From assembly GCA_001899175.1 (NCBI GenBank), contig MKVH01000019.1, forward strand, positions 1 to 59,203: DNA of 59,203 nucleotides, written 5' to 3'. This document shows positions 22,467-55,614 of this stretch, piece after piece (position 1 is the stretch's first letter; every line of letters begins with the position of its first letter). A program made the position numbers and the translations under genes. The DNA comes from Candidatus Kapaibacterium thiocyanatum (GTDB lineage Bacteria > Bacteroidota > Ignavibacteria > Kapaibacteriales > Kapaibacteriaceae). The notes beneath the pieces were generated by a model. That model saw nothing but the letters and a program-made list of their open reading frames with translations, did not search any database and was not told the origin of the DNA.

Positions 22467-22497
22467 GGGCCGCCCCCGATAGGGGCGGCCCTTTTTT
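22467..22497 (+). terminator. Strong intrinsic terminator after the RRM gene
   Basis: A 10-bp GC stem (GGGCCGCCCC at 22467-22476, GGGGCGGCCC at 22482-22491), 5-nt loop and a run of six T make a classic rho-independent terminator 29 nt after the RRM stop codon. Confidence 0.95.
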
Positions 22498-30571: not shown

Positions 30572-30614
30572 ACTATGACCGTAGATGGCATGGTGACCGA
30601 CGTACGTTCGCACG
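30572..30614 (+). promoter_or_regulatory. Shared 43-nt module, copy A (dyad plus TACGTTCGCACG)
   Basis: Aligns without gaps to 54029-54071: left arm ACTATGAC 8/8, centre nGTAGAT 6/7, right arm GGCATGGT versus GTCATAGT 6/8, an 8-nt unconserved spacer, then TACGTTCGCACG 12/12. In this copy the right arm still pairs mostly with the left through G-U pairs. TACGTTCG resembles the -7 box TAnnTTTG, so the module may be a regulated promoter. It lies 62 nt before the start of the broken gene at 30677. Confidence 0.55.
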
Positions 30615-30676
30615 CACATGCAACATGAAGCGGTATCGCCGTCGGTGCCGCCTATGTGGTCACGAACGAGGGTCCT

Positions 30677-31723
30677 ATGTGTACGATGTCCCGGGTGGCC
30701 ATGCCGTTGTTGGCCCTATGCTTCCTGTCGATATCCGCGCTCGCGCAATGCGATTCGTCCTTCCAGTTCTACCGACCGGATGCGGAAATCTATCCTCTGA
30801 CCCCGAATGGGCTCGACACTGACAACCGGATCGATCCGCGCATCTGGACGGCTCAGTGGCATTTCGAAACACAGTCGGATTCGACTGTAACGAAGATTGT
30901 CTTCGATGACTTCCTGAGCAATGGGCGCCGTATATGACTGGATAGCTGGTGCCGTGAGAAAGTCTGGAACTGGAACAGGATGACCCAGCAGTACTTCAAC
31001 GAAGTCACCAATACACAGTTGAGTGAGCTGTCGCGTACGGCCTATATGCCCGTCATCGCGGGCGATACCATCGGCTTCTTTCGCTATGTCTACTGGATCA
31101 AACGGGGCGGTACTGCCAATGTCCCGTTGTCGAAGTGCGTATCGGACGACGTCGTGTCGTATGCCGTCGAACTGGTACGGCAGTCGGACGGCCAGCGTAT
31201 GGCCCTGCTCGACACGTTCCGTATCAGTCAGAGCGGAGCGTCGTCGCCATGCGTTTACTCCATCTATCCGCTGGCATCGAAGGTCAGATACGTCATACCG
31301 TCGCATATCACGGATACGATACTCGCCTGCATCCGTGTCAATGTCTATACCAGCGGCGGATCAAACGACACCTTCACACGCGGCGATATCTTCAGTACGG
31401 CGCGTGTCAGAACATTCCTGAACAACCCCTACTTCGAGAACTTCATGGCAGTGGTCGACTCGAACAATGTGTGCCGTGCCTCCGCCGGAAACCGCGGCAT
31501 GGCCGTTACGAACGGCACCACCGGTACGGTCAATGCAGCCGTGTCGTCGAACGGTATCGTACAAGTCAAGGCCTTCTCCCAGCAAGGGTCGCCAGTGGCT
31601 GACGCATCCGTAACGAGCTGGCCAAGCACGAAGGCACTTGCTACCGGAGTGGGGCTGTTCATCGTCTGCGGTATCAATAGTGCCGGAGCTGTAGTATGTA
31701 CAAGTACGATGATGGTGCAGTAG
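30677..31723 (+). pseudogene. Secreted protein gene interrupted by in-frame TGA at 30935
   Basis: The reading frame from ATG 30677 encodes a signal peptide (MSRVAMPLLALCFLSISALAQ) and 86 codons, then TGA at 30935-30937. The same frame stays open on the other side to 31723 with plausible protein (LDSWCREKVWNWNRMTQ, then about 250 residues), so one ancestral ~348-codon gene carries a nonsense change, or the base is a sequencing error. The product is not recognised; the 3' half is Ser/Thr/Val-rich with several Cys and looks like an exported beta protein. If translated separately, the second half could begin at ATG 30980 but would lack a signal peptide. Confidence 0.6.
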
Positions 31724-52418: not shown

Positions 52419-52538
52419 TCCGCACCGGCGGACCGGAACCGCGGGAGACGTCGACGCGTCGGGGATGCGTCGGACATGACCGTTCAATGAACAAAAATTA
52501 AGTTGACCTCGTTGCGAGGAACGTGCAGGTTGCATGCC

Positions 52539-53774
52539 ATGATGTTCGGTATGCCATATCTCTTCCGCGGTTCCCTGGTTCAGCCTTTGCGCCGTCCCGC
52601 AGCCGTGCCGGACAGGCGGAAGTCGTCGGATGGCAAGGGTGCGGGCGATCGGCTCCATGCGCTGGACTTCGCACGCTTCATCGCCATGCTGTTCATGATG
52701 CAGGGACACGTCCTGGACGCCCTGGTCGGTACGGCGTGGATCGATGTTTCCGTGTTCCCCTGGAACATCTGGCATGCCTTCCGCGGATTCACCGCTCCCG
52801 TGTTCCTCATGGTCTCCGGCGCCGTCCATGCCTTCGCATCGAAGCGCGGCGAGAACGGACTCATCCGTGAGGATGTCCTGGCCAAACGTATCCGGTGGGC
52901 ATTGACGATCATCGGTATCGGCTATCTCCTCGTCATGCCTGCGAACAGGATATGGGATCTGCCCTTCGTTCCGTCGCAGGTCTGGGCTCCCGCGCTGTCG
53001 GTGAACATCCTCCAGCTTACGGGCGTGACGATGCTCATGTTCGTGATCGTGATGCATACGACGCGATCTGTACGCGACATGGGACGTCGTGGGTTGTTGA
53101 CGGGGCTGGCCATCGTGGCACTGACGCCACTCATGCAGTACGTGCCGCCGTCCATGCTTCCTGCCTGGGTGATGTCCTACCTCAATCCGTCCACGGGCTC
53201 GCTCTTCCCGATCTTCCCCTTCAGCTCCTTCCTCTTCTTCGGCATCGCGGTCGGTGCCTACCTGCATGGCATCCCGGCCGAGCATCGTAACGAACACATC
53301 AAGCGCTACGGCTGGCGCGCAGGTGGCGTCATGGCCGCATGTGCCACGCTCTGCTACTATGCGGCGCTCGGTATGGGAGTGCCGGACAGCGCCCTGGCAT
53401 CGTCGACGAGCGTGCTGCTCGTTCTGCAGCGCCTTGGCGTCGTGCTCATGATCTTCAGTGCGTCGGTCGTTCTGCTCGAGCGGACGTGGAAGCTCAGGAA
53501 CTGGTATTCGATGTTCGGCAAGAAGTCGCTCTATATCTACGTCATCCATCTCGTGCTGCTCTTCGGTACGCCGTGGTTCGACGGCATCGGCCGCACACAT
53601 TTCCGGGTCTTCGATCTCGCCACCGGTCTCGGCTTCGTCGCCCTGATCATGACGTCGACGCTGATCCTGGCCTTTGCCATGGACCGATTCGAACGCTATC
53701 CGTGGAAGCCTGCCCACCGCAGGGCCCTTTCACTCGCAGCCTGTCTGCTCCTCGGGTGGCTGCTGATGGTCTGA
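52539..53774 (+). CDS. Polytopic acyltransferase-like membrane protein (HGSNAT/DUF1624-like)
   Basis: 411-residue protein with about ten helices. The first helix carries RLHALDFARFIAMLFMMQGHV, and the next loop AFRGFTAPVFLMVSGAV, which resembles heparan-alpha-glucosaminide N-acetyltransferase-like and OpgC-like membrane acyltransferases (R..LD..R...M..M..GH with the conserved His in helix one). KKSLYIYVIHLVLLFG near the C-terminus is also typical. It may acetylate an envelope glycan. The start among ATG 52539, 52542 and 52551 is uncertain; residues 1-45 are a disordered basic leader. Confidence 0.7.
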   Translation: MMFGMPYLFRGSLVQPLRRPAAVPDRRKSSDGKGAGDRLHALDFARFIAMLFMMQGHVLDALVGTAWIDVSVFPWNIWHAFRGFTAPVFLMVSGAVHAFASKRGENGLIREDVLAKRIRWALTIIGIGYLLVMPANRIWDLPFVPSQVWAPALSVNILQLTGVTMLMFVIVMHTTRSVRDMGRRGLLTGLAIVALTPLMQYVPPSMLPAWVMSYLNPSTGSLFPIFPFSSFLFFGIAVGAYLHGIPAEHRNEHIKRYGWRAGGVMAACATLCYYAALGMGVPDSALASSTSVLLVLQRLGVVLMIFSASVVLLERTWKLRNWYSMFGKKSLYIYVIHLVLLFGTPWFDGIGRTHFRVFDLATGLGFVALIMTSTLILAFAMDRFERYPWKPAHRRALSLAACLLLGWLLMV

Positions 53775-54028
53775 GATCATCGTTCTCCTGATCCGATCGT
53801 TCCGTTGTCTTCCGCTCCCGAGCGGCAGGCCAGGCCGAGTCGTGACCTGTCGTCGGTACACCATGTCGTCCTGTCGATTGCGTTCCATATGGAACGATAT
53901 GATCGTGAACCGTCATCCGAGACGCCCACCTCCGTCGCCGTGATCATGATACTTGTATGAATGATTCGGAATACGTTGTTCGCAAAGCTCCATTCCTCAT
54001 TCGTGAAATGAATATCCCGGACGGTATC

Positions 54029-54071
54029 ACTATGACAGTAGATGTCATAGTCCTTCCGTTACGTTCGCACG
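54029..54071 (+). promoter_or_regulatory. Shared 43-nt module, copy B (perfect dyad plus TACGTTCGCACG)
   Basis: ACTATGAC (54029-54036) and GTCATAGT (54044-54051) form a perfect 8-bp dyad around AGTAGAT; TACGTTCGCACG follows at 54060-54071. The copy at 30572 aligns over 43 nt without gaps (32 identities). TACGTTCG matches the -7 box at five of six fixed positions, and GTA in the dyad centre falls at the -33 position, so a dimeric regulator on the dyad would cover the promoter. Confidence 0.6.
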
Positions 54072-54161
54072 AAGAAAGGTGATCGAAGCCAGTGCATGGC
54101 AACGAGGACCGGACGCTATGGGCATGGCGAACGGGTGCGTCGGAAACCGCACAGAATGAGG

Positions 54162-54187
54162 CAGGGAGATTCCGCACGATCTCCCTG
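54162..54187 (+). other. 9-bp hairpin between module copy B and the terminator
   Basis: CAGGGAGAT (54162-54170) and ATCTCCCTG (54179-54187) form a perfect stem with an 8-nt loop. No T-tract. If the region is transcribed it would be an internal stem of the RNA. Confidence 0.5.
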
Positions 54188-54300
54188 TCCATTCGAAGAA
54201 CGGATGGCGGATAGATGTGGTGAACATGGAATCGTATGAACGATGCGGAACGGTATCGTCTCGGGGAAGCCGCTGCCGTGAGTGACCGCACTGAGTGAAG

Positions 54301-54335
54301 CGGAGAGGTCTGCGAAGGGGCCTCTCCGTTTTTTT
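54301..54335 (+). terminator. Strong intrinsic terminator without an upstream gene
   Basis: CGGAGAGG (54301-54308) pairs with CCTCTCCG (54321-54328), followed by seven T. The nearest coding sequence upstream ends 527 nt earlier, so the terminator probably serves a separate short transcript. Confidence 0.9.
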
Positions 54336-54732
54336 GTCACGTCCGTTCTCGTTTTCTCCGTGACGTTTTCATTGGTCCGCGCTCCTTGCATTTGAGGTGC
54401 ATAGGTCCGATTCATGATATCTCGCGTGTCCATAGATGATGTCCCATTGTTCATCAACGGATGTCATAGTCTGAACAAGTGTCGTAGCTGCCGTCGTCCG
54501 GCTTGGCGATAACATCGCGTCCGATCGGTGTATGTGTGGTCTCCGATCGGTGTCCGGTATGAACGACGGGCTCGCCCCCACGTTGGGCCAGTGCATTTGG
54601 GCAATCGTGACCGATGAATGGTCCGTTGGTGAAGGCACGGTATCGCGATGCCGATGCCGTCGAACACAGACAGTCGCAATGCGTGCTGCCAGGATAGAGA
54701 ACCGTAACTCTCGATACTTCCGGAGTCCTTCC

Positions 54733-55614
54733 ATGATTCGCATACAGGGGTGGATCGCTCTCATCATGACGCTGACGATGTGCTCGGCCGTCATGCCTTC
54801 ATATGCGCAGGACGACGACGTCGTGCGCCGTACTGCCGTCCTCGGCAGCGAAGACTTCGATGCCGATGGTTTCCTTGATACCGTCACGGTGACCGTCCGC
54901 TACGATGCGGAGCATGGAAAGCGCTATCGCGGTGTGAACCTCGCGGCCATCCTCTGGGGCTACGACGCGGAGAACAAGGACGCCGTGGCCGATACGACCG
55001 TCCTGGATGTGACGCTGGATGGCGGGGAGTCCATGGATGCCTACTTCTACGACACGGACAAGGATGGCATCCACGACATCGTCGTCTATGCGTCGAAGAA
55101 GCAGGACGGCGAGACGGTGCGCCGACGCTGGGTCATCCGTCCGGATGCGGACATGAAGACGCAGAACGCGCTCGCGTTCCGGGGTGCCAGCATGCGCACC
55201 CAGGCCGCAGCATGGATGGAGGACATGGATGCCGCCGATACGACGCAGTCGCGGAAGATCAGAGGGACGGGCTATACGGTGACGCCGCTCAACCACCGCT
55301 CACGCAGCGAGAAACGTATACCCCGTGCAGCGGATACGATCCTGATGAAGACGCCGGAAACCACGCTCACGCTGGCACCGAACCCTGCGACGAACGAAGT
55401 CCGGATGCATCTGAAGGCGGAGAATCTGTCGTCGCCGATGCTGAGGATCATGGACAACACCGGACGCCTCGTGATGCATCGGCGCTTGAGCGATGAAGCG
55501 ATGACGGGAATGTCCGTGATCGATATCCGGAGTCTTTCCTCCGGAAGCTATGTGGTGAAGATCGTCGACGGTGGACGCACGATTGTCGAATCCATTCTCG
55601 TGGTGCAGCGATGA
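54733..55614 (+). CDS. Secreted protein with T9SS sorting domain
   Basis: 293-residue exported protein. A signal peptide ends MPSYAQDD (about residue 25). Residues ~30-130 include two calcium-site-like segments, DFDADGFLDTVTV and DTDKDGIHDIVVY, of the D-x-D-x-D-G-x-x-D type seen in thrombospondin type-3 or dockerin-like repeats. The last ~80 residues are the sorting domain: TLTLAPNPATNEVRMHL, RIMDNTGRLV and SSGSYVVKIVDGG. The role is unknown. The end overlaps an in-frame ATG of the giant gene (ATGA at 55611). Confidence 0.8.
   Translation: MIRIQGWIALIMTLTMCSAVMPSYAQDDDVVRRTAVLGSEDFDADGFLDTVTVTVRYDAEHGKRYRGVNLAAILWGYDAENKDAVADTTVLDVTLDGGESMDAYFYDTDKDGIHDIVVYASKKQDGETVRRRWVIRPDADMKTQNALAFRGASMRTQAAAWMEDMDAADTTQSRKIRGTGYTVTPLNHRSRSEKRIPRAADTILMKTPETTLTLAPNPATNEVRMHLKAENLSSPMLRIMDNTGRLVMHRRLSDEAMTGMSVIDIRSLSSGSYVVKIVDGGRTIVESILVVQR

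Follow-up and report, generated by a model that had tools for sequence, protein, structure and literature searches.

Regulator-controlled intergenic small RNAs (sRNAs) of bacteria carry their own control site, measure ~100-300 nt, are structured, end at an intrinsic terminator, and stand as orphans between genes. Among DNA-binding proteins with palindromic operators, BrxR and CapW are reportedly WYL transcription factors that combine HTH and WCX domains. A further comparison is offered by PafBC of actinobacteria. PafBC-dependent (RecA-NDp) promoters are given as tTGTCRgtg, 8 nt, and TannnT (PMC5656591), the PafBC motif is described as non-palindromic and the fold of WCX domains as ferredoxin-like and similar to that of RNA-binding proteins (PMC6789036), and PafBC is reported to let the housekeeping polymerase use such promoters via sigma adaptation (PMC11804915).

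The locus considered here lies in a window of 59,203 nucleotides (the whole stretch of DNA that was analyzed), which is contig 19 of the 28-contig, 3.27-Mb genome of Candidatus Kapaibacterium thiocyanatum. It is of an ordinary kind, an intergenic sRNA candidate, in a notable regulatory context. We lean toward the view that it is a stand-alone small RNA gene of ~260 nt in the regulon of an HTH_11+WCX regulator, with a probably trans-acting product whose transcription, 5′ end, and function are predicted. This view is built on the observed elements, a shared module, the co-occurrence of that module with the regulator, and a fold excess. The features are as follows.

52503..53774, + strand: upstream neighbor, HGSNAT_cat/Acyl_transf_3 membrane protein (ORF list, Pfam; context only)
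54029..54051, no strand: perfect palindromic putative operator, 23 bp, ACTATGACA-GTAGA-TGTCATAGT (8 own-genome sites with up to 3 mismatches versus 1 for a reversed-pattern control)
54060..54067, + strand: -10-like element TACGTTCG, 8 nt past the palindrome, shared form TAnnnTCG (motif scans, matrix; putative promoter role, weakened by the regulator-start comparison)
54072..54335, + strand: predicted non-coding RNA, ~260 nt (fold excess z -4.3, no convincing ORF; 5′ end placed from the -10 position, could instead be upstream of 54029)
54154..54194, + strand: 17-bp bulged hairpin with a 9-bp perfect stem inside (folding, inverted-repeat pairing, shuffles)
54298..54335, + strand: intrinsic terminator, G+C-rich stem 54298-54331 plus T7 at 54329-54335 (fold-based scan, shuffle test)
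54733..55614, + strand: downstream neighbor, Por_Secre_tail sorting-domain protein, with a paralog-shared leader at 54449-54569 (Pfam, DNA comparison; context only)
30572..30610, + strand: second window copy of the module, ahead of a secreted-protein-like gene (motif scans, matrix)

Fold, terminator, and coding potential of the interval

The upstream gene (end 53774) and the downstream gene (start 54733) are separated by ~960 nt. The first-pass annotation had placed a perfect intrinsic terminator in this gap, 527 nt after the upstream gene, and the distance was right within a few bases, as the stem begins 524 nt past the end of the upstream ORF. The terminator also held up: a T-run scan (at least 5 T, fold < -12 kcal/mol) gave three window sites, at 22492 (-27.2), 54329 (-24.9), and 23771 on the - strand (-13.3, weak), of which this one is the second strongest. 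Its stem has a z of -4.4, and 0/300 shuffles were equally stable. A consensus scanner listed 0 terminators on the + strand and 0 sigma-70 promoters in the window (shuffle means 1.8 and 1.4), and we think that its rules miss the G-U-containing stem and the promoter type of this locus. The intrinsic terminator expected of a bacterial intergenic sRNA is present at 54298-54335, though absent from this generic scan.

The 9-bp hairpin noticed earlier ahead of the terminator is likewise exact (54162-54170 with 54179-54187) and is the core of a hairpin that grows to 17 bp with one bulge. The larger hairpin (54154-54194) has a z of -6.2, with 0/300 shuffles equally stable; when the window is folded in 44-nt pieces, some six other places equal or exceed it. 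The whole interval from 54072 to 54335 folds at -109.0 kcal/mol versus -89.1 for shuffles (sd 4.7; z -4.3, 0/300), and with the terminator removed z is -3.0, with 1/300 shuffles as stable. Both the linkers of the RNA (z -1.8 and -0.1) and its flanks (53776-54028, z 0.1; 54340-54730, z 0.7) are unremarkable in folding. Thus, the fold excess has the same limits as the proposed RNA and comes from the two hairpins. The original proposal of a candidate non-coding RNA keeps its structured body and its terminator.

The proposal had also held that the interval is without a convincing coding sequence. An Arg-rich frame of 47 codons does exist at 54096-54239, and its codon score corresponds to the 5th percentile among true coding pieces, a level that 12.9% of wrong-frame pieces also reach; no Pfam match was found for its 47-aa product. 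An overlapping 40-codon GTG frame (54092-54214) has a score of 0.058, above that of the 47-codon frame and intermediate on yardsticks set with 47-codon pieces (coding median 0.249, wrong-frame 95th percentile 0.057), and this frame stays ambiguous. It is conceivable, albeit unlikely in our estimation, that the transcript serves as a short mRNA and encodes a tiny peptide, in either frame or a shorter one, with the hairpins as mRNA structure. Such an mRNA would fit the other 7 modules of the genome, which precede protein genes, the intermediate score of the GTG frame, and the presence at ~54073-54084 of AGAAAGGTGATC, which resembles a Shine-Dalgarno sequence. However, the start codons stand ~12 and 16 nt from the AAAGG of AGAAAGGTGATC, the 17-bp hairpin falls within the frames, relatives are lacking in the family genomes, and the low score and missing Pfam match of the 47-codon frame also speak against a peptide.

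The palindromic module and its regulator

The promoter-like module of the first-pass annotation is a real shared element, although a specific regulon site rather than a generic promoter. A pattern made of the palindrome, 8 nt, and TAnnnT[CT]G (up to 3 mismatches) has 8 matches versus 0 controls in the own genome, and 32 versus 2 in 40 genomes. This pattern was built from sites already seen, including the window site, and a matrix test is therefore cleaner. A matrix derived from the regulator sites of 16 other genomes ranks 30574 (40.4) and 54031 (25.0) first and second among ~118,000 window positions, where the third-best score is 5.4 and the mean is -51 (sd 12). The score at 54031 is under those of all 16 training sites (43.7-61.6) and comparable to those of four sites on contig 8 (26.3-30.3).

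Parts of the module carry less signal. The palindrome alone occurs at or under control level in several other genomes, the half-site TGTCATAGT alone has 20 sites versus 23 controls in the own genome, and an earlier spaced pattern (19 matches versus 15 controls) is not enriched. The exact operator was found in 15 stretches across genome contigs: 2 are from Ignavibacteria, 1 is from Melioribacter and presumably belongs to the same class, and the other 12 are taken as chance. The two of these 15 that were examined coincide with genomes G009 and G012 of our set.

The 8 modules of the own genome are distributed as 2 before the regulator, 5 before genes whose products were judged by eye to be secreted- or lipoprotein-like (window 30574 and four sites on contig 8), and 1, that at 54029, before no convincing gene. 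The 54029 module is the sole one of the 8 without an ORF of at least 60 codons within 500 nt. The gene after the 30574 module (window 30572-31723) resembles the contig 8 genes by eye, and its frame from ~30656 is broken by an in-frame TGA at 30935-30937. On contig 8 (10500-22500), four module-preceded genes follow one another ~2 kb apart, and three appear paralog-like by eye; Pfam gave no match for the two of the four products that were scanned.

The regulator, encoded on contig 15 of the own genome, has 178 aa with HTH_11 (E 6.4e-7) and WCX (E 1.7e-11) domains and no WYL domain. Among the full-length orthologs scanned, 3/3 have HTH_11 and WCX and lack WYL. The HTH + WYL + WCX composition of PafBC-type proteins is therefore not that of this regulator. 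Its gene stands after a sigma-54 factor gene and has two modules in tandem ahead of it; the module region (locus L045, 1615-1850) is a tandem duplicate, and one open frame crosses both copies into the regulator.

Module and regulator co-occur. Of 40 genomes, 17 have a regulator match at E<=1e-18 and 8 more have weak matches only, and in 17/17 a module lies ~30-45 nt ahead of the matched region (3 of these carry 3 mismatches). Among the 23 genomes without a strong match, modules were seen in G030 only (3, each with 3 mismatches); no convincing ORF follows them, and we take them as chance. Over the 40 genomes, 8 foreign modules are not ahead of a full regulator. Foreign modules also precede ORFs of 478 codons (G004), 476 and 280 codons (G022), and 326 codons (G005), and one in G012 (C34) lies before a regulator start that is truncated where the contig ends. 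A palindrome scan of G004 also gave a site before a 787-codon ORF. Nine genomes, all of a single genus within the family, have a regulator match shortened to ~75-80 residues, mostly the HTH domain, and the one such locus scanned (L074) has no WCX match; the upstream module is kept in 9/9.

One caution concerns the start of the regulator. In 12/17 genomes the position of an ATG in the palindrome (AGG in G012) is in an open frame with the regulator, and in 5/17 stops intervene. For 7 in-frame genomes, the stretch from the module to the usual start differs by 0.46, 0.41, and 0.75 per codon position, a third-position excess as in coding DNA, whereas the module itself does not have this excess (0.12, 0.27, 0.23), nor do 4 out-of-frame genomes (0.52, 0.33, 0.43). 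In view of this excess, the coding region of the regulator may begin within the palindrome in some genomes and be transcribed from a promoter perhaps further upstream. This would weaken the -10 reading and a 5′ end at ~54072 more than the operator reading, and it makes an RNA start at ~54075 less certain. It is possible that the palindrome at 54029 is a repressor site downstream of the transcription start. As a predicted binding site, the palindrome survives the caution. That it is solely regulator coding sequence was rejected as a general reason, given the intervening stops in 5/17 genomes; read as a coding start at the 6 own non-regulator sites, its frame enters the gene only at a contig 8 site (L044, 8110).

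Position and relatives of the RNA

Placement of the module and terminator after the acyltransferase is not common to relatives: the two were found together downstream in none of the 19 usable loci with an acyltransferase match (L009, with 33 nt available, and L028, where the wrong ORF had been taken, were left out). L024 has two loose palindrome-like matches, and L022 has an unrelated terminator.

The whole window has 0 Rfam matches at gathering score, and the best sub-threshold match is P31 on the - strand (22.4 versus 40 bits). Besides the locus itself, a DNA search of 60 genomes recovered own-genome matches for the operator (C15:44614) and for two parts of the leader of the downstream gene, 54449-54569 and 54699-54740; a weak G035 match to 54076-54111 (E 0.0055), which runs antisense within a 636-codon frame, is probably due to chance. 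The 22 other family genomes yielded no relative of the RNA body and a single match (G019), which covers the operator only, and a one-sequence covariance model of 54150-54335, a test of low power, recovered only itself and 0/21 relatives. Phages and plasmids gave no match to the RNA. In G001, the one congener in the comparison, the regulator and module are present and the RNA is not detectable. Within the genomes compared, the RNA thus appears to be species-specific.

Such a distribution is also what might be expected if a gene of the regulon had decayed or been deleted here, leaving its control site and terminator in place and a transcript without function. Other modules precede secreted-protein-like genes, and the one after 30574 has an internal stop. 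However, a search of the gap for traces of 8 neighboring or regulon proteins gave no residual similarity (best E 0.10), and drift does not predict a perfect operator and a strong fold (z -4.3). We are doubtful of a remnant for these reasons.

The gene at 54733 lies on the same strand ~400 nt downstream, and the RNA could in principle be its attenuated leader, with the terminator acting conditionally on that gene and what follows. This seems quite improbable: the leader of that gene (54449-54569) is common to two paralogs, neither upstream stretch aligns with the RNA, and an unsystematic look at the predicted fold revealed no obvious antiterminator. In the two paralogous copies of this leader elsewhere in the own genome, TGTCATAGT-like half-sites stand as direct repeats at a distance of ~30-34 nt, with TAACATCG after them; perhaps, given this arrangement, the same regulator acts there. 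The window copy has a degenerate proximal box.

Proposed action and comparison with known systems

Returning to the stand-alone RNA gene that we favor, a dimer of the HTH_11+WCX regulator would probably bind the palindrome at 54029-54051 and guide RNA polymerase to TACGTTCG, the -10-like element next to it. We infer activation over repression because the geometry is analogous to that of PafBC-dependent promoters. Transcription would start near 54072-54076 and end at 54335, yielding a structured RNA of ~260 nt. Because the control site is common to the regulator and to secreted- or lipoprotein-like genes, action in trans is the most likely mode for the RNA, and it might serve as a post-transcriptional arm of the surface-protein regulon through base pairing to mRNAs of surface proteins or through titration of a protein. 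Computed duplexes with candidate mRNAs gave this role no support, their energies being unremarkable (they rank at 0.08-0.92 relative to 91 background starts) in a crude test that whole-length duplexes dominate and whose ten candidates include one not located and two with starts a few bases off.

Since the WCX fold is ferredoxin-like and akin to RNA-binding proteins, one could also imagine that the WYL-less regulator binds the RNA itself, as a ligand or as a decoy, which would close a feedback loop in place of the nucleic-acid sensing by the WYL domain in PafBC. We view this idea as a long shot. In the titles and abstract openings that make up our literature sample, no RNA is described under an HTH+WCX regulator without WYL.

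The candidate resembles regulator-controlled intergenic sRNAs in its control site, size, structure, terminator, and orphan position, and differs in lacking an Rfam match and in its likely control by a WCX-type regulator. With BrxR and CapW the system shares HTH and WCX domains and a palindromic operator, but the regulator here has no WYL domain. Compared with PafBC promoters, the module is alike in its TGTC-type box (TGTCATAGT), 8-nt spacing, and TAnnnT, and the regulators are alike in HTH and WCX. However, the box here is palindromic and one base longer and is not a PafBC promoter, the regulator has no WYL domain, and the linked genes are secreted- or lipoprotein-like rather than DNA repair genes. 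What was an orphan terminator can now be tested as part of a defined regulon in a group that has received little study, and the comparison brings to light a compact WYL-less HTH+WCX regulator whose site is palindromic and PafBC-like and whose likely targets include an RNA.
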